Source: a virus. From it: DNA of 29,532 nt. The DNA is taken from positions 1 through 29,532 of IMG/VR virus record IMGVR_UViG_3300047550_004999. The stretch is one strand, 5' to 3'. Numbering within the stretch: position 1 is the stretch's first letter; each line of letters begins with the position of its first letter. The notes under the pieces were generated by a model. The model was given only the letters and a program-made list of their open reading frames with translations. It was not told the DNA's origin and ran no database searches. A program made the translations under genes and the position numbers. Shown one piece after another: positions 4,513 through 29,532 of this stretch.

Positions 4513-7500
4513 ATGAGTAATCGGATTGACATTGAGATTCGCGATAGGATTGACGACTCCATCGCCAAAAAACTGGCGCAAATTGCTGCTGCTGCTAAAG
4601 CTGCACATATCCAAATCACAGCATTAAAACAGAGTCTTACTGGCACAACGACCAATGTAAATAGATTGGCAAGGGCTCTTACCGCTAGTGCTATTGCGGC
4701 TAGGGCATCTAGTAATCAAGTTTCTCAAAAAGTTACTGCGTTGGGCCGATTACGAGCGGCTTATAATAGTGTAATCACTGGCGCAGGGAATCTTACTCGA
4801 AGATGGTTAGGCTTGCGAAGTTCAGCAATGCTGCTTAACAGCGATATGCTTTCGCTAATTCGGACTTTGCGAACAGTTTCGGGTATCGTTGTTATCGCTG
4901 GTGTTGGTAAGGGTATTCTGGATTCGGCTGATGCTTTCCAGGTAATGCGAAATCAGTTGTCTGGAGTGACAGCTAACAGTCAACAACTCACAACTGTTCA
5001 AAACGAACTTTTCAAAGTTTCTAATCGAGCCCGAGTGCCAGTCGGGGACATGACTAAAGCATATCGTCGCTTCGATATGGCTTTGGCTGCGGTCGGTGCG
5101 TCTCAACGCGAATCCCTCGACGTTACTGAAACTGTGGGCAAACTGCTCACAATGAACGGTGCCTCGGCTCAAGAAGCCGGTGCAGTTCTCTTGCAATTGT
5201 CGCAAGCATTCAATAAGGGCAAGCTCGATGGTGACGAATTCCGTTCGGTCGCAGAGCTTATGCCTCAGATCCTTGACGCTGTTGCCAAAGCCGCTGGTAA
5301 GAGTCGAAAAGACATTTATGAAATGTCTCGCGATGGTAAGATCAATATCGAAATGCTGCAAAAAGCATTTAGAGCTATCAAACCTTCGGTTGATGCTGCG
5401 TTCAAAGATTTACCAGTGACTATTGGGCAATCTTTGACAATTTTACAAAATAATCTAGTTGCTTTTTTTGGAAAGTTAGATAAGCAATGGGGATTTAGCA
5501 AAAGTGTCATTGAGATGATTGATTACGTCTCAAATAATTTGCCTCAAGTTTTAAGAATGATCGAAGGTGTGCTTCTTGGGAGTTTTGTTGCTGGAATTGC
5601 AACAATTTACACCGCTCTTACTGTTTTTACAGGAGGATTGTTTACTGTTTATTCGATGCTTGGTCTTATAGTCGCTTACATGACAGCTTTTGGCGACAAA
5701 ATTTACGTTGCTGGACAGAACTTTTACACTCTCAGAGACGTTGTATATGGTATTTATAGGCTTATTTCTGAATTTTTATCAGATGTTTTCAATGTCAATG
5801 TGACTAAAGGTTTCGGTCAAAACATTGTTGATTATGTTCTTTTGCCAGCTTACAAGTTTTTAAGAGAAATAATTCAGAACATTACTACTCTGATTATTAC
5901 GGTTTACCAAACATTACGCGATGTGTTTTCAGCATATAGTGCTGCTAGAAAATTGATTACTGGTGAACCAAACATTGATCCTGAAAGAAGAAGTATACTT
6001 TTTCAACAAAGTAAGCTAAACGGACAAGAACTACCTGATGATTTTCGAAGAAGAAATCCAGCGGAATTATTTGTTGCAATTCTTGCCGAAGGCTCTCGTC
6101 TAGCAGCAGAGCAGTTTGCAAGAGGAATTGTTTGGGCAGCATCAGAATTTGTAAAAATTATTTCTAGTCATATCAGTCCGATATTTGTTGAAATTTACAA
6201 CAAATTTATCAACGCAATAAATAATATACCTTTTCTAAACGCCAACATTCCAACAGCTACTTATGATGCTGATTCAATGAATGCTGAAATAACAGCTATT
6301 CAGCAAAAAATTGATTCTTTTTTAACAATAACTCCTGAAAAATACCCAACTCTTTTAACTTTTGGAGAGCAGTTCTTAAAAAATTGGCAAGAAAATTTAC
6401 CTAAAATTTCTGCTGTATTTGACCAAATCGAAAATAGAGTTATTGAATTTAGCAAACAAAATGCTTATCAAAGATATTTAGGGGAATTGACATTAGTTAA
6501 TCAACTTTCAGGTATTTATGATGTTCTTAACGAAAAAGCTCAAAGCGCACTTAATTATTTTTCTAACCTTTGGGATGTTACAATCACTTATATTAAAGGT
6601 TTGTTAGACCAACTTCTATCTGCAATCAATACTGTTTTGGGAGCTTTAAGTGGTCTTGGTGGAGCGGCAAGTGCAATTTTGGGTTTGTCTGGAAAACAAT
6701 CGGCGGCTGGTCTTGGTCAAATTGGAACAGCTATGTTCCCAATGGGTGCGCTTGGAATGCAAGGCCTGGGTTCAATCGGGCAAGGCATTTACGATTATCT
6801 CGGAAGCGGTTTGCGTACACAAAACGAATTGTTGGCAAAAATGGCTACTTTGTATGGCAACGCTGGGAATGCTGCCGCAGACTTTGGAAATAAAGCCACA
6901 AATAGCATGAATGGGCTCAACAACGCGACTGGTGACGCGATGGGTACTTTCATGCAGCTTGCCCAGCAAGCCTTCGGTCACGTTACTGACGCGATTATCG
7001 AATTCACGAATACTGGCAAGTTCGAGTTCAAAAAGATGCTCAAAGCAATCGTCGATGATTTGCTTCGTTTCTTCTTGAATCGCTTTTTCCAAAAGATGCT
7101 GTTCTCCATTTTCGGTGGTGGATTTGGCGGTATGGGTGGTATGATGGGCGGCATGATGGGCGGCATGGGCGGCTTTGGATTTGCTGCTGGCGGTTACACT
7201 GGTAATCTGCCTACAGGTCAAGTTGCAGGCTTTGTCCACGGTCAAGAATTTGTCATGCCAGCCGGTGCGACCAAACGCAATCGGCCTGTCCTCGAAGCAA
7301 TGAAGCGAGGGGCAAATGTTACAACCACTTCGACCGGTCGAAGCAACGTCCAGATGAATGTCTCGGTCAAGAATTACACCGATGGTAATATCCAGGTTCG
7401 TCGAATCAACCAAACCGATGTTGAAATCATTGCTACTCAGGTTGCCGAGCGAACTGTGCAAGAACGCACACCTCGTCTCGTAGCTAATGAAATTCGCAAC

Positions 7501-19166: not shown

Positions 19167-19237
19167 TCGTCCCGGCTGGATTCGAACCAGCAACTTCAGG
19201 CTTGTCGCCTCGCGTCTACCAATTCCGCCACAGGACA
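19167..19237 (-). tRNA. tRNA-like gene with compressed anticodon arm (Leu-type body)
   Basis: On the - strand the sequence has a 7-bp acceptor stem (TGTCCTG with CGGGACG, including two G-U pairs), a D arm GCGGAATTGGTAGACGC typical of leucine tRNAs, and a perfect T arm (GCTGG, TTCGAAT, CCAGC). The part between the D and T arms is only about 19-20 nt. It folds best as AGGC-GACAA-GCCT, a 4-bp stem with a 5-nt loop, instead of 5 bp with a 7-nt loop. There is no long variable arm as leucine tRNAs need and no proper U33-anticodon context. No CCA is encoded. It is either a decayed tRNA or a tRNA mimic. Confidence 0.62.
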
Positions 19238-20228: not shown

Positions 20229-20891
20229 CTAACCGCGAAGTTTGGAAAAAACGTGATTCAAATCGGGGAATTCAAATGGGGCAATTGCTTGACACCGTGA
20301 CTTCCCACAATACTGATTGTCCTGAAACGTGCGAAGCGCTCGCTTCACTTGGTTGTCTGCCGCATCGGTCCACACCTGGTAGTAGTAGACTTCATCCACC
20401 AGATGAGGCAAAAGCTGCGAAAGATTCTGTCCTGGCATATTTGGACCGTAAATCAATCCGCCAGAAAAATCCTTGATCCGATCTTGCTTTGCGATGATGT
20501 AGACATTGTGACCTGACTTGAGATCACGCAGTCTACGAACATGAGCGAGAATTCGATCCTGCATTTCACCGTAGGCTTGCCGAGCGTCCTTGTGTACTGG
20601 CTTCTGCTCTCGCAGAATCATTTCGGCAAGCTCGGTAATGTCATCGACACAGAGCGTCAAAAACTGCTGCCCGCTTTTCTCAACCGCATCCAAAGCAGCT
20701 ACGAATTCCTTTTCGCTTTTGCAAGCGATGAATGGAACATCATGTTGCCTCAGACTCGCCAGTCCTTGATCCATGCTCAGGACAATCGGTGCTGGTGCCG
20801 TTGCGATCATTCTCGTCTTGCCGCAGCCAGTTGGGCCGTAGCAAAGTATCGTAGTCCCATTTCGAAGACTGTTGGTAGACTCGATTTTCAT
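20229..20891 (-). CDS. Sak4-like RecA-family ATPase (single-strand annealing recombinase)
   Basis: A 220-residue ATPase. Walker A is GPTGCGKT (19-26) and the Walker B strand is FLTLCVDDITELA. The pattern GTTILCYGPTGCGKTRMIATAP, PIVLSMDQGLASLR, then HNVYIIAKQD and DFSGGLIYGPNMPG fits the Sak4/AAA_24 group that pairs with a phage SSB for recombination-dependent replication. The ATG at 20891 is preferred over a TTG four codons earlier because GAGAG precedes it. It directly precedes the DUF669 SSB gene, the usual pairing. Its 5' end overlaps the C-terminal part of the CsrA-like frame by about 150 bases. Confidence 0.85.
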   Translation of the reverse strand: MKIESTNSLRNGTTILCYGPTGCGKTRMIATAPAPIVLSMDQGLASLRQHDVPFIACKSEKEFVAALDAVEKSGQQFLTLCVDDITELAEMILREQKPVHKDARQAYGEMQDRILAHVRRLRDLKSGHNVYIIAKQDRIKDFSGGLIYGPNMPGQNLSQLLPHLVDEVYYYQVWTDAADNQVKRALRTFQDNQYCGKSRCQAIAPFEFPDLNHVFSKLRG

Positions 20892-21051
20892 TTGTTCTCT
20901 CAATGCGATGAATTTTGAATTTGCGGTCTGCGATTATTGCGAGCTTGACATAATTTTTTTGAATTTTGTCAACGTCGATAATCAGTTGGTCGCCTTCCGG
21001 CGTAAGAATAAGGATTCCTTCCTGTTTGGCCCTTCCAATGATCAGTGGCAT
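20740..21051 (-). CDS. csrA-like: CsrA-like RNA-binding regulator with overlapping C-terminal extension
   Basis: Residues 1-55 match CsrA/RsmA: EGILILTP, GDQLIIDVDKIQKNYVKLAIIADRKFKIHRIER, following the family pattern of G-D-x-I-x-I-x-V, then V-(K/R)-L-(A/G)-I-x-A-(P/D), then I-H-R-x-E. CsrA dimers bind GGA motifs in mRNA leaders and alter translation. A strong ribosome site (AAGGAGA) precedes the ATG, which abuts the upstream stop. CsrA proteins usually end near residue 60, but this frame continues to residue 103 and overlaps the Sak4-like gene in another frame. Residues 56-103 have no CsrA similarity. The core call is fairly safe; whether the long tail is real is open. Confidence 0.7.
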   Translation of the reverse strand: MPLIIGRAKQEGILILTPEGDQLIIDVDKIQKNYVKLAIIADRKFKIHRIERTNENRVYQQSSKWDYDTLLRPNWLRQDENDRNGTSTDCPEHGSRTGESEAT

Positions 21052-21592: not shown

Positions 21593-21621
21593 AGATTAAG
21601 GACTAAATTGTGTATCGTCAA
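21593..21621 (-). promoter_or_regulatory. Leftward promoter of the replication operon
   Basis: On the - strand there is TTGACG (21621-21616), a 17-bp spacer, and TAATCT (21598-21593), about 48 bases before the first start codon of the leftward operon. The -35 box matches the sigma70 consensus in five of six positions; the -10 box is weaker. Confidence 0.55.
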
Positions 21622-21704: not shown

Positions 21705-21923
21705 ATGGTCAAAAAATTCAATCGAAGGCCGACTTTGGCCGAAAAAACGAGAGAACTGCTGCAAAACCGCCGCAGAACTCTCACAATTGCGGAAATTTCT
21801 TATCGGCTCGGTGTCAGCGAAAACTGGGTATCGCTTTTTGCGACTGGCAAAATCAGCGATCCTTCAGTGAACACGATTCAGGATCTTTACGAGCTTTTGA
21901 CAGGTCAGCATTTGGAATATTGA
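21705..21923 (+). CDS. HTH (Cro/CI-like) DNA-binding regulator
   Basis: A 72-residue protein starting at ATG 21705, with GAAAGGAGA eight bases upstream. The core (LTIAEISYRLGVSENWVSLFATGKI) is a helix-turn-helix with the usual A-x-x-L/I-G-V-S turn. It is followed by PSVNTIQDLYELLTG, the fourth and fifth helices of the XRE family. The N-terminus is basic (MVKKFNRRPTLAEKTRELL). It lies beside a divergent promoter region with palindromic and tandem sites, the standard place for a Cro-like switch. Its targets are probably those sites. The helicase-primase gene follows by seven bases and should share its transcript. Confidence 0.82.
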   Translation: MVKKFNRRPTLAEKTRELLQNRRRTLTIAEISYRLGVSENWVSLFATGKISDPSVNTIQDLYELLTGQHLEY

Positions 21924-21930
21924 GACACGG

Positions 21931-24300
21931 ATGGAAATCACAAACAAAATCCCGATGGAAATGCGCGCCGTGGATCAGTGGGTCTGCTGGAGATTTGAGC
22001 AGCGAGGCAACTCGCGACCTACAAAGATTCCGATTGATGCCAAGAGCGGCAGACTGGCAAATGTCAATGATCCCGGCACTTGGTCTAGTTATCAGCAAGT
22101 CGTGGACACCTTTGGTCACGGGGGTGTCAGCGGAATCGGATTTGTCTTGACGCAAGCAGATCCGTTTTGCTTTATCGATTTGGATTCAACCGATAATCCA
22201 GAAGAAATTGCTGCTCAGGTAGAGATCAGCAATTCGATTCATTCTTACCAAGAGATCAGTCCTGGCGGTGGTTTGCACATCATTTGCAAAGGGACTGTTC
22301 CCTGCGGTCGTCGCAAGGGAAAGATTGAAATTTATTCTTCGCAACGATATCTCACGATGACTGGCATCGCGTGGAAGGAATGCGAGATAACTTTTCAGCA
22401 GGGTAAGATTTCGCAGATCTGGGAAAGCCTCGGATCAGAAGAAATTCAAAAGGCTCGGTACGATGGCAATTCCCCACAGATAGCTGACGATCAGCAAGTG
22501 ATCAACATGGCGAGCGCCGCTCAAAATGCTGAGAAGTTCCTGAATTTGTGGCACGGAAATTTCGGCAAGTATTACGCGAGTCAATCCGAAGCCGACCTGG
22601 CGTTGATCAATATCTTGGCATATTACACTCAAAACCGGGAACAGGTCGCGAGACTGTTTCGGTTTTCTGCTCTTGGTCAGCGTCAGAAAGCTTCGCGGGA
22701 TTCTTACGTTAACGTGATGATCGAGAAGGCATTTGATCAGCTTGTTCCACCGATTGATCTGAGCGCTATTCAAAACCAGATCAGATTGTTTCGGTCTGAA
22801 AACAAGCAGAATCCGATTGTGGTCGAGGAGAGGAATTTTCCGAACATGATTGAACGCAGGCCGATAAAGATTGAGGAAACCCAAAAGAGGGATTCCGACA
22901 TTTATTCGGTTCCTCCGGGATTGCTCGGTGACATTGCTCAGTGGATTTACCAGTCGGCACCTCGGCCTGTTCCGCAAATCGCCCTGGCGGGCGCTATTGG
23001 CCTTATGGCAGGGATTTGTGGCAGATCCTACAACGTCAGTTCTACCGGACTCAATCAGTATGTCATGCTCCTCGGAAATACCGGTGTTGGCAAAGAAGCG
23101 ATCAGCAGTGGCATCAGCCGGTTGATTGACATCATCCGCTTTCAAATGCCGCAGATTGTGGATTTTATTGGACCTTCGGATCTGGCTTCAGGTCAAGGTC
23201 TGATCAAATGCCTATCCGATCATCCCACCAAAAGCCTTGTTTCGATTATGGGTGAGTTTGGGATTCGACTTCAGCAAATCAGTTCGCCAAAAGCAATCGG
23301 GGCAGACTCGATGTTGAAAAGAGTTCTCTTGGACCTGTTCAATAAATCAGGTCGAGGGAATGTTGTTCGGTCAACTGCCTACAGCGACTCGGAGAAAAAT
23401 ACGAAGTCGATTGAATCGCCAGCTTACTCGATCATCGGTGAGAGTGTTCCCGAGAAATTTTACGAGGCAATCGACGAGGATATGATCAGCAGCGGGTTGC
23501 TGCCCAGATTCCTGGTGATTGAATATCTCGGCAATCGCCCGCCTTTGAACGAGAACCATAACGGAGTCTATCCCTCGCAGCAATTGGTTCAGGGCATCTG
23601 CAATCTGGCGACTCAGAGTTTGCAGCTGATCAATACTCGGCAAGTGATCGATATCAAGTTCTCGAAAGAGGCTTTGGAATTTTTGCGCAAGCTGAATGAC
23701 GAATGTGACTCGCGGATTAACGGCAGCAAGGCAGACATCATCAGAAACCTTTGGAACAGGTGCCACATCAAGACGATGAAGCTTGCGGCTTTGGTCGCAG
23801 TTGGCATCAATCCTTACGATCCGTGCATCGACCTGGATGCAGCGCAGTGGGCAGAAAAGATTGTGCGAGACGATATCGAAAGGATTTCTGAGCGGTTCCA
23901 TGCAGGGCGAATTGGCGAGTCTGGCAGCGAAGGTGAGCAGATGCGTGAGGTAATGCGAGTGGTGATTGATTACGTCACCCAAGACTTTGAGGAACTTGCT
24001 CAGTATGGCAGCAAAATCTCGATGGCAATGCACGACAGCTTCATCGTGCCTTACTTTTATCTCAGCCGCCGGTTGATCAACACGAAGCTGTTTCGCAAAG
24101 ATCCAATTGGCAGCACCCGCGCAATAAAAAGGGCAGTTCAAAACCTCGTCGATAATGCCGACTTGGCTAGACTGCCCGCGCCACAAGTGATGACGAATTT
24201 TGGCTTTTCTGGGGAATGCTACATCCTATCGAACATGGAAACTCTCGAAGCAGCGAAACGGACCAGAATCAATCGGCTCGGTGTCAATAGATTGACTTGA
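21931..24300 (+). CDS. Primase-polymerase fused to a DUF3987-type helicase
   Basis: A 789-residue replication protein. The N-terminal part matches archaeo-eukaryotic primase-polymerases of the phage NrS-1 type: DQWVCWRFEQR and PTKIPIDAKSG at the start, catalytic D83 and D85 in FIDLDS, SPGGGLHIICKG with H116, and KIEIYSSQRYLTMTG with E133 and R139. The C-terminal part is a DUF3987-like ATPase with Walker A GNTGVGKE (382-389), a Walker B-like strand SLVSIMGEFG and a sensor-like SPAYSIIGES. The combination can prime and unwind at an origin. It is on the opposite strand from the polymerase, SSB and other replication genes. The start lies seven bases after the HTH stop with only a weak ribosome site. 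Confidence 0.87.
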   Translation: MEITNKIPMEMRAVDQWVCWRFEQRGNSRPTKIPIDAKSGRLANVNDPGTWSSYQQVVDTFGHGGVSGIGFVLTQADPFCFIDLDSTDNPEEIAAQVEISNSIHSYQEISPGGGLHIICKGTVPCGRRKGKIEIYSSQRYLTMTGIAWKECEITFQQGKISQIWESLGSEEIQKARYDGNSPQIADDQQVINMASAAQNAEKFLNLWHGNFGKYYASQSEADLALINILAYYTQNREQVARLFRFSALGQRQKASRDSYVNVMIEKAFDQLVPPIDLSAIQNQIRLFRSENKQNPIVVEERNFPNMIERRPIKIEETQKRDSDIYSVPPGLLGDIAQWIYQSAPRPVPQIALAGAIGLMAGICGRSYNVSSTGLNQYVMLLGNTGVGKEAISSGISRLIDIIRFQMPQIVDFIGPSDLASGQGLIKCLSDHPTKSLVSIMGEFGIRLQQISSPKAIGADSMLKRVLLDLFNKSGRGNVVRSTAYSDSEKNTKSIESPAYSIIGESVPEKFYEAIDEDMISSGLLPRFLVIEYLGNRPPLNENHNGVYPSQQLVQGICNLATQSLQLINTRQVIDIKFSKEALEFLRKLNDECDSRINGSKADIIRNLWNRCHIKTMKLAALVAVGINPYDPCIDLDAAQWAEKIVRDDIERISERFHAGRIGESGSEGEQMREVMRVVIDYVTQDFEELAQYGSKISMAMHDSFIVPYFYLSRRLINTKLFRKDPIGSTRAIKRAVQNLVDNADLARLPAPQVMTNFGFSGECYILSNMETLEAAKRTRINRLGVNRLT

Positions 24301-24388
24301 TGAAAATCGCGATGGCAATTACAAGGTAGGCTATCGCCCCGAGAAAATATCCGAAGTTTTGTTCGTTCTTATTGGTTCGTCGTGCCAT
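24284..24388 (-). CDS. 34-residue membrane micro-protein
   Basis: A short frame with a strong ribosome site (GAAAGGATTTG) before ATG 24388. It reads MARRTNKNEQNFGYF, then a hydrophobic helix LGAIAYLVIAIAIFI, and ends KSIY. The basic N-terminus followed by one helix predicts an inner-membrane protein with the N-terminus inside. It overlaps the end of the preceding leftward gene by 20 bases and the 3' end of the primase gene on the other strand by 17. The ribosome site makes it the best supported of the three micro-proteins in this window. No function is recognisable. Confidence 0.6.
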   Translation of the reverse strand: MARRTNKNEQNFGYFLGAIAYLVIAIAIFIKSIY

Positions 24389-24584
24389 AAATTTCAAATC
24401 CTTTCACGTTGATGGAGTTCAAAACGGACTCGAATGCTCGGTGGTATTCACCGACACCGCAGCGCAGACCTTTGGTCGGAGTACACTGCTTCAGACATTC
24501 CCGGCTTGCGCCGACCGTGCCTGACTTTTGCATTTCGCGAATCGTCGCGAGGATGTTGGTTCTTAAAATCTCTTCGCTAGTCAT
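24369..24584 (-). CDS. Small uncharacterised protein
   Basis: A 71-residue protein beginning with a helix (SEEILRTNILATIREMQKSG), followed by a cysteine-containing loop (CLKQCTPTKGLRC) and a second helix (EYHRAFESVLNSINVKG). Its ATG overlaps the previous stop (ATGA), so it is coupled to that gene. The three cysteines could bind metal, but the spacing is not a known finger. I do not recognise a family. Confidence 0.55.
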   Translation of the reverse strand: MTSEEILRTNILATIREMQKSGTVGASRECLKQCTPTKGLRCGVGEYHRAFESVLNSINVKGFEIYGTTNQ

Positions 24585-24826
24585 CGAATAATTTCTCCCG
24601 GTAATGAGTCAAAGAATCTGCGCGCGGCAGAAAGGGAATCGTAGCTATTTTGGTATATCGGGCTCTTTGCCTGCTCAGTGGTGTCGATCACGCGCACCAC
24701 GAACACGCCTCCCGAGAACATCAGCACGGAATACACATCGCAGTCGATTGGTCGCGATGAATCTGTGGACTTGTGTTCGGTTTGACCGGCAAGGAATGCG
24801 GTCAGGTTTGGTCGAAGATTTGCCAT
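24581..24826 (-). CDS. Small uncharacterised protein
   Basis: An 81-residue protein starting MANLRPNLTAFLAG, with a strand pair (CDVYSVLMFSGGVFVVRVID) and a helix (SYDSLSAARRFFDSL). An alternative start at 24871, preceded by AGGTCAA, would add 15 residues. Neither start has a strong ribosome site. The layout suggests a small alpha-beta fold. It is coupled to the next gene by an ATGA overlap. The 197 bases upstream hold only a weak GC hairpin (24991-25010) without a T-run. Confidence 0.55.
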   Translation of the reverse strand: MANLRPNLTAFLAGQTEHKSTDSSRPIDCDVYSVLMFSGGVFVVRVIDTTEQAKSPIYQNSYDSLSAARRFFDSLPGEIIR

Positions 24827-25023
24827 AAAATGCCATTTCTGCCCGACTGGGCTGAAAATTGACCTCCGCATTTGACCTATAACGAGCGATCTCGGGTCGG
24901 CTCGATGTTTGACCCGCCCGAAATTATCGTGCGTCAGACGGTCAACCCAACTCCACAACTTTAATCACTACTGCAAAGCTACAGACCGTCGAGCCCGCAT
25001 TCGCAGGCTCTCAGGTCAGTACC

Positions 25024-25719
25024 CTAAACCGTGTATTCGTTTTCAATTGCGAAACGGTACAGGTAACGTTCTAACTCTTCGAGATTGTCGCTGCGATATT
25101 CATCTCGACCGATCAGCAAATACCAACGACCTTCTTCAAGGTTCGTTGAATTGCTTTTCCATGACTGCGTGTCTTCAATGCTAAGATCATCGCAATACAA
25201 TCGCCCTGAAACGCCCAAAAGTGTTTCTTCGCCAATCGCCTCCCCGATGTTTTGGCAATCACGACCAGTCTGGCGGAATTGCGCAAACGTCATGACTTCA
25301 ACCTCGCGCCAATTCAGGTGGGCATAATCCCAGAGATCATCGTCTTCGTTAACACCTGATGCCCACACTGATGCCAACAACAGCAGCATATTGGAATCGC
25401 AGAAATCGTCGGGATAAGCTTCGCCAGATAGCAATTTTGCCATCTGCTCTGCGGTCACGGTCGATTCCAGCAATCGCCGGTAATGTCTTGCAGCTTCAAT
25501 TCGCATTTGCTTGCGATTAGAATTGCCAGCTTGAGCAATCGTCACGGATTCAGGAGCAGCCTTGCACAGCGCGTCGAAGAAATCCAATCCAAGTCGAACA
25601 TCAGACTTTGATATGTTTTCGTTCTGGTCGATGCAGAGCAGGTTGTCCATCAGATTTGCAATCGTCTTGGAACCGCAGGTCTTGCGCAAAAGTTCGGCTA
25701 GTTCGTTCAATTTGTTCAT
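25024..25719 (-). CDS. Uncharacterised protein, 231 residues
   Basis: Starts at ATG 25719, preceded by AAAGGAAACAC and overlapping the upstream stop (TAATG). The protein is helical and acidic, with no membrane segment or signal peptide. It contains KTIANLMDNLLCIDQNENIS, RLLESTVTAEQMAKLLSGEA, a hydrophobic helix SNMLLLLASVWASGVNEDDD, and a C-terminal part with strands (GRLYCDDLSIED, GRWYLLIGRDEYRS). I do not recognise a family. It is coupled to the 193-residue protein upstream, and the two probably act together. Confidence 0.62.
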   Translation of the reverse strand: MNKLNELAELLRKTCGSKTIANLMDNLLCIDQNENISKSDVRLGLDFFDALCKAAPESVTIAQAGNSNRKQMRIEAARHYRRLLESTVTAEQMAKLLSGEAYPDDFCDSNMLLLLASVWASGVNEDDDLWDYAHLNWREVEVMTFAQFRQTGRDCQNIGEAIGEETLLGVSGRLYCDDLSIEDTQSWKSNSTNLEEGRWYLLIGRDEYRSDNLEELERYLYRFAIENEYTV

Positions 25720-26300
25720 TACAGTGTTTCCTTTTTCCAGAGATCCCAAGCAGCATTCCACTCAGCGTTTTGCTTGTCGTCGTTCACATCGCAGTGGCCG
25801 TCGAGATCTTCGAAGACCTCAAGCATTACCTCGTTCGCGTCGAGAAAGTCGTGCGAATGGCAGACGTTTGAATTCTGCTCTTCGCGATTCAATTTCAGGA
25901 CTTGGTTGTACTTCACAGATCCCAAATCGCATCGCAGTTTGTAGTCAAACAACCACGCGATAATTTTGGCTCGTTCATTCAAGTCGCGGAATGCCCATTT
26001 GCGCCACATCTCAACGTGTTCGATAACGTCTTGTGGTTTGTTGGTCGAGAAAATCGGGTTCAGTTCCCCTTCTTGGTTTCGATTGAACAGGCCGAATACA
26101 TTTTGACTTTGGCAGTTAAGTTCGCGACTATCGGGATCTGCGTAGTCAACGAAGAGGATAAATGCGCCGTTTGACAATTTCGGGCAGCAGTCGCCACCGT
26201 AGCTGTCGTCGATGAAACCAAATCGTTTCAAGTCGCGCTCCATTTGCCGGAACAATTCCAGATTGTCGAACCCTCCGAATTGATTAGTTACAGTCTGCAT
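25719..26300 (-). CDS. Uncharacterised protein, 193 residues
   Basis: Starts at ATG 26300, with AGGAGAAC upstream. The N-terminus has a loop with two adjacent cysteines (DDSYGGDCCPKLSNG) followed by a strand AFILFVDYADPDSREL. A middle helical region follows (DVIEHVEMWRKWAFRDLNER), and the C-terminus is rich in Asp, Asn and Trp (NDDKQNAEWNAAWDLWKKE). Strongly acidic overall. Acidic small proteins in early phage regions are sometimes DNA mimics or host inhibitors, but nothing here proves that. It is followed directly by the 231-residue gene. Confidence 0.62.
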   Translation of the reverse strand: MQTVTNQFGGFDNLELFRQMERDLKRFGFIDDSYGGDCCPKLSNGAFILFVDYADPDSRELNCQSQNVFGLFNRNQEGELNPIFSTNKPQDVIEHVEMWRKWAFRDLNERAKIIAWLFDYKLRCDLGSVKYNQVLKLNREEQNSNVCHSHDFLDANEVMLEVFEDLDGHCDVNDDKQNAEWNAAWDLWKKETL

Positions 26301-26314
26301 CGTTGTTCTCCTGA

Positions 26315-26560
26315 TTAGTAGCTGGTTGGAAAGAATGCCTTGGTTTCGCGTTTGATGCCTGTCTTGTGATATGCGACGACTTCATCGTGGGCAATTTCAC
26401 AAAGTTCTTTGATGGTCGCTGCCGACTTCCAGCCGGTCTTGGTCAGAACGTCAAAATGCGCATCGTCTGCGACATCAATCTCACAACCGAGGAGCGTGAG
26501 AGTTGTGCAGGCCCAAGTAAAATTTCGGCGTTGGATGACTTTCTTTCGATTTGGTTTCAT
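26315..26560 (-). CDS. Small uncharacterised protein
   Basis: An 81-residue protein starting at ATG 26560, preceded by AGAGGTTCC. A longer frame upstream has no ribosome site. The N-terminus is basic (MKPNRKKVIQRRNF), followed by strands and helices (LTLLGCEIDVADDAHFDVLT, SAATIKELCEIAHDEVVAYH). It could be a small nucleic-acid-binding protein by its basic start, but I see no specific motif. It lies 14 bases before the acidic 193-residue gene. Confidence 0.6.
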   Translation of the reverse strand: MKPNRKKVIQRRNFTWACTTLTLLGCEIDVADDAHFDVLTKTGWKSAATIKELCEIAHDEVVAYHKTGIKRETKAFFPTSY

Positions 26561-26603
26561 GTTGGAACCTCTGAAAAGTAGAAGGTAGCTGCCATCGTCA
26601 GAC

Positions 26604-26640
26604 CGCCCGCACAACCGGGCGATGACACCCCGAGGGGTGT
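26604..26640 (-). other. Two adjacent GC hairpins between genes
   Basis: CGCCCG pairs with CGGGCG (26604-26609 with 26616-26621) and ACACCCC pairs with GGGGTGT (26625-26631 with 26634-26640). They lie just after the first gene of the leftward accessory operon and upstream of the second. There is no T-run on the - strand, so they may set mRNA stability or processing rather than end transcription. Confidence 0.45.
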
Positions 26641-26646
26641 TTCGGC

Positions 26647-27198
26647 TTAAGTTCCGAGAATTGCTTTTCGCCACTGGTCACCGGCAACCGAGGAGGTTTT
26701 GCCTTTGGACTGGTTAAAAACCAGCACTTGGCAGAAGGTGTCGCAGTGGTCAGCGAACCGGCGGGCAACCTCGCGATTTGCCTGCTGCTGGTCTTTGGCG
26801 ATTCGGTACAGATTGTCGGACTCTTGAAATTTCCAGTAGTCCGGCGCGTCAGGGTACGGCACCAGAGCGAACGATTCCGCGAGCATCTCCAGCTGCATCG
26901 TCGCGTTGATGATTGTGCCGAGGTAGCTGCTGGACTTGCCCATGTGGTAATGGAGCAGCTTGCAGAAGGTAGCTTTGAGGCATCTTTCGCGGGCGGCTTC
27001 GTCGATGGCTCCCTTGTCAACGTAGCCGGTCCAAGACAGCGGTCTGGCGCGGGTCTTGGTTTGGGCTTCATTGAAGCAACCGGCGAAACCTCGTCGCATC
27101 AAATCGACTTCGGCATCGGTCGGCACAAAACCGTTGACCCGGCGGCAGAGAACGAGGATTTGGTCGAACAACTCATTAACCGGCAATTTGGCTTGCAT
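26647..27198 (-). CDS. Uncharacterised protein, first gene of the leftward accessory operon
   Basis: A 183-residue protein starting at ATG 27198 with ACGGAGATC as ribosome site; the frame is open further upstream, but no better start exists. It is mostly helical: NELFDQILVLCRRVNGFVP, VDLMRRGFAGCFNEAQTKTR, ATFCKLLHYHMGKSSSYL, MQLEMLAESFALVPY and REVARRFADHCDTFCQVLVF. It has no membrane segment. I do not recognise a family. It is the first product of the operon behind a structured GGA-rich leader, so it is the gene most exposed to leader-based control. Confidence 0.65.
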   Translation of the reverse strand: MQAKLPVNELFDQILVLCRRVNGFVPTDAEVDLMRRGFAGCFNEAQTKTRARPLSWTGYVDKGAIDEAARERCLKATFCKLLHYHMGKSSSYLGTIINATMQLEMLAESFALVPYPDAPDYWKFQESDNLYRIAKDQQQANREVARRFADHCDTFCQVLVFNQSKGKTSSVAGDQWRKAILGT

Positions 27199-27203
27199 CG
27201 AAA

Positions 27204-27336
27204 GATCTCCGTGTTCCCGAGCGGGCAAAGATTGTGGTTTTCGTCTGAAAATGTCCCGCTCGGGCATTTCTCGACGTTTTGACAGATTTTGAGATTCTGC
27301 CAGATCTCCAGATCTTGGGGTTTCCCGAGGATCTCC
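27204..27336 (-). repeat. GGAGATC boxes in the leftward leader RNA
   Basis: Read on the - strand, GGAGATC occurs at 27336-27330, 27309-27303 and 27210-27204; the last copy is the ribosome site of the first gene. A related GAGATC lies at 27409-27404. The whole leader (27457-27199) contains nine GGA triplets, the core recognised by CsrA-type proteins. Confidence 0.5.
27216..27264 (-). other. Long-loop hairpin next to the ribosome site
   Basis: CCCGAGCGGG (27216-27225) and CCCGCTCGGG (27255-27264) form a perfect 10-bp GC-rich stem around a 29-nt loop. On the - strand it ends five bases before the GGAGATC ribosome site of the first accessory gene, so it can influence ribosome access. Confidence 0.6.
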
Positions 27337-27457
27337 GGTTTCCCCACAAGTCTCGGTTTGCCGGTGTTTTGCCGTCAAATCCTGAGATTCCTGGGTCTTT
27401 GCAGATCTCACAAATCGCACGTTTGCAGCGAAATGCGAGAAGTCTCAAAACATTAAA

Positions 27458-27485
27458 AGTCTAATCGGTAATTTGATCGAGTCAA
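27458..27485 (-). promoter_or_regulatory. Leftward promoter of the accessory operon
   Basis: On the - strand there is TTGACT (27485-27480), a 16-bp spacer, and TAGACT (27463-27458). It lies about 260 bases upstream of the first gene, leaving a long leader. The -35 box resembles that of the replication operon promoter (TTGACG). Confidence 0.5.
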
Positions 27486-27495
27486 CTGGAGTTTA

Positions 27496-27522
27496 TCCAA
27501 AAATTGTGTTTCAATTTTTGGA
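27496..27522. promoter_or_regulatory. 11-bp inverted repeat with CCAAAAA/TTTTTGG arms
   Basis: TCCAAAAATTG (27496-27506) and CAATTTTTGGA (27512-27522) are perfect inverted arms around TGTTT. The centre is about 24 bp upstream of the leftward -35 box, close to the geometry of the similar palindrome at 21640-21654. It is a likely binding site for a shared regulator. Confidence 0.6.
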
Positions 27523-27758
27523 AAGTCTTAAATTCAAAAGGGGAATCGTTTGAATCGGCTCCTCGGAGAGGGTCGATTTTCCCTTGCCGCACGGGAAATG
27601 CGGCGGTTTCTCCTGACGGCAGGGGTGATACAAAACATACAAAATATGTTGAGGTCGAAATCGCTCTTGCCGTCAAAAGGAAATGCGGGGTTTTTTGTGG
27701 CAAAACATACGGTTATAAAGAATATGGTGAATTTTTGCCTGTTCTGCTGGCAGGAAAA

Positions 27759-27788
27759 GGGATTTTGCCCTAGGGGGATTTTGCCCTA
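27759..27788 (+). repeat. Tandem GGGATTTTGCCCTA repeat
   Basis: Two exact copies of GGGATTTTGCCCTA (27759-27772 and 27775-27788) are spaced 16 bp apart. GGG and CCC at the ends of each unit make each copy partly self-complementary. It lies directly before the AGCGCT array. Confidence 0.6.
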
Positions 27789-27797
27789 TTACCGTAG

Positions 27798-27863
27798 AGC
27801 GCTTTTTAAGCGCTTTTTAGCGCTTTTTAAGCGCTTTGAAGCGCTTTTTACTAGTATAGCGCT
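27798..27863. repeat. Helically phased AGCGCT array (iteron-like)
   Basis: The palindrome AGCGCT occurs at 27798, 27809, 27819, 27830, 27840 and 27858. The first five steps are 11, 10, 11 and 10 bp, which averages 10.5 bp, one helical turn. Most copies are followed by TTTTTA or TTTGA. All the first five sites would face the same side of the DNA. Confidence 0.72.
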
Positions 27864-27870
27864 AGTAAAA
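27846..27870. repeat. Inverted repeat closing the AGCGCT array
   Basis: TTTTACTAG (27846-27854) and CTAGTAAAA (27862-27870) are perfect 9-bp inverted arms around a 7-base loop that includes part of the last AGCGCT. The AT-rich tract begins directly after it. Confidence 0.6.
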
Positions 27871-28064
27871 TAAGGGGATTTTTATATCTATATATAGGTT
27901 ATATTTGCCATATTTTCGTTAAAAACAGGCCATTTTCCCTTGTAGGCATAATCGATACGACCCGTATTCGCCCCCTAACCGGCAGATATCCCCCTGACGG
28001 CAGGATCTGCCCGTTTGATACGCACGCCCTAACCGTTAAAATCGGCCTTTTATTGGCACGCGAT

Positions 28065-28094
28065 TTGCATTGTAAAATTTTCGGGAAATATATT
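28065..28094 (+). promoter_or_regulatory. Candidate rightward promoter of the GP88 unit
   Basis: TTGCAT (28065-28070), an 18-bp spacer, and TATATT (28089-28094), about 75 bases before the first gene. The match is moderate but it is the best sigma70-like pair in the region. Confidence 0.42.
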
Positions 28095-28169
28095 TAATTT
28101 TCCGTTACCGTTTGACGATCTAACGGTTATAGTTGATGCAGTTCGAAACAATTACACGGAGTAAAAACG

Positions 28170-28355
28170 ATGAATAGCTTACTTGAATCGATTGATCACG
28201 TTCTGATTTCGGTTTACCAGCACAATTCCGAGGCGGATTTGCTGCGATCCTGTTTGCTGCGACTGCGGGCAAACGTGCAGGGCGACGATCGCGAGTTTGA
28301 TGATTTGCTTGCCGAATTGCAAGCAAATGCGACCAGAGTAGGAAAGGGCGAATAG
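28170..28355 (+). CDS. Small helical protein upstream of GP88
   Basis: A 61-residue protein with a good ribosome site (CACGGAGTAAAAACG) before the ATG. It is predicted all-helical: LLESIDHVLISVYQHNSEAD, LLRSCLLRLRANVQGDD and FDDLLAELQANATRV. It ends one base before the start of the GP88-like gene, so the two are co-transcribed and probably work together. No family recognised. Its base composition is intermediate between the AT-rich block on its left and the GC-rich gene on its right. Confidence 0.68.
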   Translation: MNSLLESIDHVLISVYQHNSEADLLRSCLLRLRANVQGDDREFDDLLAELQANATRVGKGE

Positions 28356-28356
28356 C

Positions 28357-29289
28357 ATGAAATACACCCCAAAGTTTACCAAAGCGCAGGCGCTTGAATT
28401 TGCTCGATTGTGTGGCTCTGCTGATTTGCCTACTATCATCGCCCGGGCGCGGGCAATTGCCGCCAAACTGCCCAAGGGCCGGGGCAAACGCGCCGCTAAT
28501 AACTGGCGCGGTTATTTCCTGCGGTTCGCGGATGCCCTATCGGTTGGCGCGATTCCGTTTGCTATTTTTGCGCTCGACGGGAATAGCAAATTGCCATTTG
28601 CTGCATTTTCGACCCTGCCGATTGTGACCTGCCCCGGCGCGGGTGAATGCGCGGGAATCGGGGCGGACGGTTTGCCCGATTTGGCGCGGGCGTGGTGCTA
28701 TTCGCTCCGGGCGTGGCGATATCCTGCCGCATTCCTGCGGCAGTGCCAAAATACGATTTTAATCCGGTTTCGCCCCGATGCAGTCGCGGGCGCATTTGCT
28801 GCCCTGCCCCGCTCGATTGTCCTGCGGCTGTACGTCGACGGCGATATCGACTCGGCAGCGACTGCTCGATTTTGGTTCGCCCTACTCAAATCGCGCCCGG
28901 ACGTTTGCGCCTATGGCTATTCCAAGTCGCTCGACATACTCGACGCGCTCGCGGGCGATATCCCGCCCAACTATACGCTCAACCTATCATCGGGCGGGCG
29001 GTTCGACGGGGCGGAAGATCTGCGGCAGCGACTGCGGGCGCAGCAATTCACCCGGGGCGACTTTGTAGCGGTTAGAATCGAGGGCGACTTCGCGCGAGGT
29101 TTCGCCCGCTATTCCGATCCCGCCTATCATCGGGCAGTGAGGGCGGCAGCGGAGCGCGACGGCCTCGGGCGCGTGTTCAGCTGCCCGGGGCAATGCGGCA
29201 GCTGTACTGCTCGCGGGCATGCCTGCGGCACGCGAACCGATAGCGGCGCGCATTTGGTGCCGCTTACAATTGCAATCGGTGTTCACTAG
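28357..29289 (+). CDS. GP88-family protein (phage gene product 88-like)
   Basis: A 310-residue protein with GGAAAGGG upstream of the ATG. From about residue 70 it matches the GP88 family, known from mycobacteriophages and other mobile elements: FALDGNSKLPFAAFSTLP, VTCPGAGECAGIGADG, AWCYSLRAWRYPAAFLRQCQ, LRLYVDGDIDS, VCAYGYSKSLDILD and YTLNLSSGGRF. The C-terminus has a cysteine set (CPGQCGSCTARGHACGT) that, with the earlier CPGAGEC and CYS cysteines, may bind a metal or Fe-S centre. The function of the family is not established to my knowledge. It is strongly GC-rich (a hand-counted line, 28981-29040, is 42/60), unlike the rest of the window, so it was probably acquired separately. Confidence 0.78.
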   Translation: MKYTPKFTKAQALEFARLCGSADLPTIIARARAIAAKLPKGRGKRAANNWRGYFLRFADALSVGAIPFAIFALDGNSKLPFAAFSTLPIVTCPGAGECAGIGADGLPDLARAWCYSLRAWRYPAAFLRQCQNTILIRFRPDAVAGAFAALPRSIVLRLYVDGDIDSAATARFWFALLKSRPDVCAYGYSKSLDILDALAGDIPPNYTLNLSSGGRFDGAEDLRQRLRAQQFTRGDFVAVRIEGDFARGFARYSDPAYHRAVRAAAERDGLGRVFSCPGQCGSCTARGHACGTRTDSGAHLVPLTIAIGVH

Positions 29290-29322
29290 CCCGCAGGGCG
29301 GGCAGCAAACGGAGCGGGCAGC

Positions 29323-29353
29323 AAACGGGGCGCAAATCGCGCCCCGTTTTTAT
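29323..29353 (+). terminator. Rho-independent terminator after GP88
   Basis: AAACGGGGCGC (29323-29333) pairs perfectly with GCGCCCCGTTT (29339-29349) around AAATC, and the T-run continues to 29351. It lies 33 bases after the GP88 stop. A strong terminator for the rightward unit. Confidence 0.92.
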
Positions 29354-29480
29354 TTGCGCACCCAGGGCGCACCCAGGGCGCAGGCGGGCGGGCGAATGCG
29401 AGCGAATGCGGGCAGCAAATCGGCAGCGAATGCGGGCGGGCAGCGAATGCGGGCAGGGCGCAGGGCGCAGGGCGGGCAGC
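29354..29480. repeat. GC-rich short repeats
   Basis: Words such as GCGAATGCG (four copies, at 29392, 29402, 29426 and 29443), GCACCCAGG and AGGGCGC recur at irregular spacing. No reading frame is convincing. The repeats resemble slippage-prone, selfish GC-rich sequence more than a defined site. Confidence 0.6.
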
Positions 29481-29491
29481 TGTACAATATT

Positions 29492-29532
29492 TGCCCGCCC
29501 TGCATTGTATTTAAGCGGGCAGAGTATACAAT
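29492..29532. promoter_or_regulatory. Symmetric two-way promoter-like element
   Basis: TTGTAT (29505-29510), a 16-bp spacer, and TACAAT (29527-29532) read rightward. The same bases read leftward give TTGTAT (29531-29526), 16 bp, and TACAAT (29509-29504). TGCCCGC and GCGGGCA (29492-29498, 29515-29521) form an inverted repeat over it. Window end cuts the context. Confidence 0.4.

Follow-up and report, generated by a model that had tools for sequence, protein, structure and literature searches.

What function is served by five copies of a short palindrome, AGCGCT, set at steps of 10 to 11 bp between two divergent gene blocks of a tailed phage? The DNA analysed (the window, the whole stretch of 29,532 nucleotides) carries tail, tape-measure and replication genes, and an earlier note had suggested for the palindromes a cooperative filament or wrap, possibly at an origin or a partition site. 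We are inclined, with somewhat more belief than doubt, to regard the array and the AT-rich tract beside it as a phage replication origin, whose short iterons would be read by the phage's primase-helicase. The locus consists of the following parts.

27199 to 28169, no strand: 971-bp gap in which no gene was called, flanked by divergent gene blocks; the minus-strand gene on its left starts at 27198
27759 to 27788, plus strand: two direct copies of GGGATTTTGCCCTA, immediately left of the array
27798 to 27850, no strand: AGCGCT array, AGCGCTTTTTA units with phased T-tracts, proposed iterons (from the chain scan and the curvature peak)
27846 to 27870, no strand: 9-bp inverted repeat with a 7-nt spacer and a sixth AGCGCT
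27878 to 27927, no strand: tract with 82% AT, proposed as the DNA unwinding element

The palindromes start at 27798, 27809, 27819, 27830 and 27840, at the steps of 11, 10, 11 and 10 bp that the earlier note had given. A T5 tract directly follows the palindrome in four of the five copies, making the unit AGCGCTTTTTA; in one unit the T-tract is broken (TTTGA) and the palindrome is intact. The inverted repeat and the very AT-rich tract that the note had placed after the palindromes were confirmed as well: the arms TTTTACTAG and CTAGTAAAA (27846-27854 and 27862-27870) are 100% complementary, a sixth AGCGCT at 27858 spans the junction of spacer and right arm, and the 50 bp from 27878 have the highest AT content of any 50 bp in G001, a 46,607-bp contig that includes this region. 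ATAT cores can be seen by eye in the tract at steps of 8, 9 and 9 bp. Outside the array region AGCGCT occurs twice in the window, at 20335 and 22762.

The AGCGCT array is real and beyond chance. The longest chain of a single palindromic hexamer at 9-12-bp steps has five members in the real genome; in 200 second-order Markov genomes it has two (152 times) or one (48 times), and three were reached in 0/200. The array was the only match in a scan of the whole 46.6-kb contig for chained exact 6-mers, and the 5-mer version of the scan found two weaker places besides it. Tandem Repeats Finder gave its top score in the window, 92, to a 21-bp unit repeated 2.5 times, versus 85 for the 10-bp reading; thus the array also admits a reading in units of two helical turns, each with two palindromes. 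A second 11-bp tandem, GCGCACCCAGG, is found at 29356-29382 in 2.5 copies, its lag-count score being 13 versus 15 for the array.

Contig G001 is 99.997% identical to the window over 29,173 bases and identical across 27600-28200, so the array in G001 is no evidence for conservation. The 46.6-kb contig starts and stops within the GP88 gene. The left edge of the gap was set by codon usage and the right edge is an ORF at 28170 that the same codon-usage gene caller leaves uncalled, as it does GP88. That the array is coding was rejected, the 107-aa ORF spanning it (27550-27873) having a codon-usage score of -12. The gap is flanked by the following genes.

24369 to 27198, minus strand: leftward block of genes without assigned function, between the primase gene and the array gap
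28170 to 28355, plus strand: 61-aa ORF, first to the right of the gap, with no confident family match
28357 to 29289, plus strand: GP88-family gene (PF17338, E 1.9e-16), for which neither sequence nor fold gave a confident PDB match

Other elements were noted in the same genome: a type II hammerhead ribozyme between two genes of the leftward block (26583-26647, minus strand; RF02276, 46.7 bits), a CsrA-like protein encoded at 20740-21051 (minus strand; PF02599, 29.4 bits against a cut-off of 27), and a tRNA called by Rfam at 19167-19237 (minus strand, 36.3 bits) and unreported by ARAGORN. The GP88 gene region (28357-29474) is GC-rich, with 64% GC in 28501-29500 versus 47% for the contig, and is followed by GC-rich tandem repeats.

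The earlier note had proposed that the array be looked for in related phages, and as a sequence it was not found there. The array region has no match among 50,697 phage records, and an exact 27-base array pattern occurred among viral contigs in the near-identical contig alone and in no genome contig. A looser 11/10-step pattern found the near-identical contig and eight others with three copies each, none of them similar to the window in DNA. Two earlier patterns fail to match the array itself, so their results tell little; one of them gave five contigs, none with DNA similarity to the window. That search led to L006, an unrelated 159-kb viral contig that carries AGCGCTTTACC five times at 11-bp steps (5242-5301), with five AGCGCT.

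Repeats of other sequences are, on the other hand, common beside the primase gene in related phages. Loci were collected with a profile built from four primases, and the best 80 of 95, of which 79 are distinct, were kept with the window's own kin included; 65 loci have at least 600 bp 3' of the primase, and 52 non-redundant ones (<80% primase identity) were left after 13 were dropped. Four of the 52 (L167, L168, L170, L171) match the primase in its N-terminal third only. Repeated 7-mers at lags of 8, 9, 10 and 11 bp number 26, 68, 31 and 25 in the first 400 bp of these 52 loci, versus about 2.4 each in shuffles; other lags, e.g. 13, 17-21 and 27, are also elevated. At least two matches at lags 8-11 are present in the 400 bp 3' of the primase in 25 of the 52 loci, as compared to 145 of 2,045 other tiles (Fisher p 7e-15) and 7 of 156 AT-matched tiles (p 4e-12). 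Leaving out the four N-terminal-third loci gives 22 of 48; fewer than two repeats at the tested lags were found in 27 of the 52. With cores chosen by rule, chains of at least five members occur in 12/52 loci and both orientations in 13/52, versus 0.0 and 0.05 under a Markov null that loses local AT-rich patches. A stricter cluster scan of whole loci found a cluster in 11 of 49, seven of these beside the primase. Furthermore, in 35 of the 53 loci that are long enough (redundancy left in), the most AT-rich 50 bp falls between -50 and +2000 relative to the primase stop, against 5.4 expected if it were placed uniformly.

A layout that recurs among the relatives has, after the primase gene: i) a first run at 10-11-bp steps, from about +7 to +60 (e.g. 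11, 22 and 33 in L142; 30, 40 and 51 in L151; 7 and 18 in L132); ii) a second run at 8-10-bp steps, from about +73 to +111; and iii) a third, reversed run at 8-10-bp steps, from about +154 to +217. The repeated words vary among relatives and include TCTAA, TATAAT, CTTACA, TCTTAT, GTTATA, AGTGAT and TATAAGG. The earlier note had attached importance to single-turn phasing on one DNA face. That emphasis is weakened by the relatives, whose steps are 8-11 bp and most commonly 9; tight packing of the sites thus seems more general than one-face phasing. A motif resembling CAAGGACTTAG recurs, by eye, directly after the AT-rich tract in several post-primase gaps (e.g. L148, L144, L162, L093).

The window array may be the local form of this module of repeats and AT-rich DNA. 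It matches the relatives in its step, which is that of their first run, and in the adjoining AT-rich maximum. What sets it apart is that it is palindromic, has five copies and shows no clear reversed 9-bp triplets; in most relatives the runs are shorter and the sites non-palindromic, often with reversed triplets at 8-9 bp. Its own match to the 9-bp AT tandem motif of the relatives is weak (27891, 5.7 bits, third on the plus strand of the contig), while the motif reaches at least 10 bits in 29 of the best 40 loci. The array is also 3.5 kb from the primase gene, with reversed genes between. Such displacement has precedent, since L109, L162, L099 and L104 have a similar element, recognized by eye, set away from the primase at about 1.0-2.1 kb after it. 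The closest relative, L008, ends 55 bp after its primase gene and has AAAAAAAGCCC and AAAACAAGCC there, 11 bp apart; this A-rich 11-bp repeat is marginal, as 33 of 847 own tiles score equally high.

The protein most likely to read the repeats is the primase-helicase. The relevant features of the window are as follows.

21705 to 21923, plus strand: 72-aa helix-turn-helix-like gene (PF13560, E 0.00075, under the curated cut-off), ending just 5' of the primase gene
21931 to 24300, plus strand: primase-helicase, proposed initiator, carrying the NrS-1-type helix bundle PF22763 and DUF3987, with a winged helix modelled at its C-terminus
24049 to 24108, plus strand: primase-helicase codons 707-726, the segments that best track repeat identity among relatives

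The helix-bundle domain scores 39 bits against a cut-off of 27.9. The primase shares 46-47% identity with its counterparts in Burkholderia phage KL1 and Escherichia phage Halfdan (host E. coli K-12 MG1655 in its record), and the gene order is similar to that of both phages. Genus names in the records of relatives are Kilunavirus and Lokivirus, and Septimatrevirus is a name for some relatives. The C-terminal domain is modelled as a winged helix with pLDDT 87. Its Foldseek neighbors are winged helices such as MarR, the best at a weak E of 0.04, and a VIA match to CMG helicase chain 4, which from the chain name is presumably MCM4, is also weak (Z 8.6-8.9).

Two genes were considered as setting the repeat sequence, the primase-helicase and the small gene before it. 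Most of 28 phages examined have a small helix-turn-helix-like gene immediately 5' of the primase; in L106, L100, L150, L147, L116 and L152 it is replaced, by eye, by a ribbon-helix-helix-like protein, and Pfam gave no match for the four of these six proteins searched. L106 has TCTAA repeats and L100 has TATAAT, in common with phages of the other small-gene type, with which they also share the primase helix; thus the small gene is seemingly not what sets the repeat. Across 389 sliding 12-residue windows of the primase, residues 709-720 best follow repeat sharing once overall identity is removed (partial r 0.44, 0/300 permutations; 20 phages, labels partly assigned by eye). With automatic labels the best window is 713-724 (r 0.297, 7/200 permutations; 25 phages left from 29 loci once proteins that contained stops or were no longer than 600 aa had been dropped). 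L144 was omitted from the last alignment for an internal stop. Residues 29-42 (r 0.37, 0.35) also reach the 95% permutation line of 0.351 in the 20-phage scan, and do not in the 25-phage scan. Repeat sequence is therefore linked statistically to one winged-helix segment of the primase-helicase, better than to the other segments scanned.

The segment reads NKRLxAxA in four of five TCTAA phages, and QRR or QRK followed by LxxAA in four of six TATAAT phages; QRR/QRK and TATAAT repeats also go together, by eye, in L109, L162, L099, L104 and L149. The window phage has SRRLINTK. The covarying residues form model helix 59-66 and what follows it, not the next helix, which in winged helices is usually the recognition helix and lies in the major groove.

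GP88, the gene on the other side of the gap, was also considered and was rejected as a lead. Among the best 80 of 111 GP88 loci, tandem repeats are found within 400 bp downstream of the gene in 11 of 26 loci versus 16 of 478 control tiles. With a non-coding control, near and far coverage are 3.2/3.9%, 3.4/1.9% and 5.6/1.5% at three ORF cut-offs, and the paired Wilcoxon tests are not significant (p 0.65, 0.53 and 0.12). The lag peaks 5' of GP88 are not helical, and the protein has no initiator-like fold. L022, L024 and L025, which belong to one GP88 cluster (90% identity, single linkage), have 21-23-bp repeats of differing sequence about 0.5-0.75 kb before GP88. Also before GP88, L026 has sites of the DnaA-box-like sequence TTATCCACA and L025 has TTATGCACA.

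A model for replication start can be drawn from these features. Several copies of the initiator would occupy neighboring short iterons along a strongly curved stretch of DNA, and the adjoining AT-rich tract would melt and serve as the place where synthesis is primed. The likeliest initiator would be the phage's own primase-helicase, bound through its C-terminal winged helix; it would then prime on the opened strands in the manner of NrS-1 polymerase. That this protein binds the array and that replication starts there is suggested by the genomic comparison. Of the sites on which other initiators act, the DnaA box TTATNCACA is absent from the 46.6-kb contig. The cumulative GC skew, a check proposed in the earlier note, did not place an origin at the array: its detrended minimum is near 21593, and skew may also track gene direction. 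The suggestion of an origin nonetheless gains support from the closely spaced repeats that relatives have next to AT-rich DNA in the neighborhood of the primase gene, and from the predicted curvature of the array; the partition alternative offered with it does not, as described below.

A broader proposal, which we put forward tentatively and would not be surprised to see fail, is that these primase-helicases are one-protein initiators: the winged helix reads phage-specific 8-11-bp iterons, the helicase opens the DNA and the primase primes it, iterons and protein segment change together, and the window carries an extreme, relocated form. If true, the origin could be found beside the primase gene in many related genomes, that of Halfdan included, and a single protein would recognize, open and prime it. 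The paired changes of repeat and protein segment would then amount to a testable code, which would explain why the array has no sequence counterpart.

The strongest rival is an operator array, in which dimers of a phage regulator, e.g. the 72-aa helix-turn-helix-like protein, would sit on the palindromes and control divergent promoters in the gap. The position between divergent gene blocks, the perfect palindromes that fit a dimeric repressor, and the presence of such a gene all speak for it. However, relatives with the same type of small gene carry other repeats, and a promoter scan of 24000-29532 found four sites versus 4.0 expected, none of them in 27780-27930. A regulator would also leave the adjoining AT-rich maximum unexplained. 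We judge an operator to be unlikely, although it deserves to be kept in mind.

Curvature could also be the function in itself, the phased T-tracts shaping a promoter, gyrase or packaging site independently of any protein, with the palindromes incidental. Predicted curvature along the contig indeed peaks at the array in six of eight settings, and the array takes second place in the remaining two. With a Bolshoy-type wedge model it ranks first for windows of 53, 63 and 105 bp and second for 42 bp; with an AA-only model the windows of 42, 53 and 63 bp all put it first, and that of 105 bp puts it second. The wedge values of both models are assumed ones. But the GCGC parts are as exact as the T-tracts, and the TTTGA unit keeps its palindrome, making this explanation improbable. 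Curvature as a family trait was rejected, since curvature and AT content peak at one and the same place in just 2 of 38 loci, the genome studied here being one of the two.

Transcriptional terminators or a structured leader RNA, with tandem hairpins followed by U-runs on the plus strand, are a poor explanation. The RNA fold is better than those of 200 shuffles (z -3.45), but a scan for terminator-like sites (GC-containing stem, at least 5 T in 8 bases) listed 11, none of them at the array, the best 7-bp stem is followed by only 4 T (by eye), no plus-strand gene is called upstream within the gap, and Rfam found nothing above the gathering score in the gap, the array included. Neutral tandem duplication without function is poorer still. 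The sequence is in no relative found, the unrelated L006 also has five AGCGCT at 11 bp, and the window has its second 11-bp tandem; against this speak its position at the extremes of curvature and AT content and the repeat habit of the relatives. A partition centromere like parC of plasmid R1, in which five ~11-bp direct repeats in a row are bound by ParR, resembles the array in repeat number and step, but has the least to commend it of all, since the ParB_N and integrase families have no match in the contig and six leftward-block genes of unassigned function no partition-protein match (in the StbA/ParM search, the controls gave no match anywhere).

The replication origin with short iterons read by the primase-helicase is thus the reading carried forward. 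Iteron origins are already known, and the form proposed here would be a variant; none like it is described in the literature searched, which was mostly open-access and represented by listings and the openings of abstracts, and in which no description of replication origins in related phages was met. Three known systems come close to it.

SaPI origins lie immediately 3' of the rep helicase gene, and it is the C-terminal domain of this helicase that recognizes them (PMC7581432). The SaPI/SCCmec-type arrangement is similar in having short repeats near a replicative helicase gene whose product here has a modelled C-terminal DNA-binding fold, and the 13/52 relatives with both repeat orientations add to the likeness. 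Repeats directly 3' of the helicase gene are found in 25/52 relatives, whereas the window site is palindromic and in a gap 3.5 kb downstream, behind reversed genes. Unlike in those systems, the helicase is fused to an NrS-1-like primase and the repeats vary between phages.

The iterons of ori-lambda are bent, and an AT-rich region of 40 bp lies next to them (PMC5043065). As in ori-lambda and the iteron plasmids, the repeats of the window are on curved DNA next to an AT-rich tract. The unit, however, is 10-11 bp (or a 21-bp double) instead of 19 bp, and the initiator families lambda O (PF04492) and Rep3 (PF01051) have no match in G001, while positive controls matched in 12/14 and 6/14 genomes.

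NrS-1 polymerase requires a template sequence of 8 nt (PMC7102993 and PMC8718748), which is present in two copies, one per strand (PMC7102993). The window differs in having an array, and its phage has a separate DNA polymerase gene as well. The likeness to NrS-1 is that the primase carries the NrS-1 helix-bundle domain, and that here too a specific short sequence may mark the origin.
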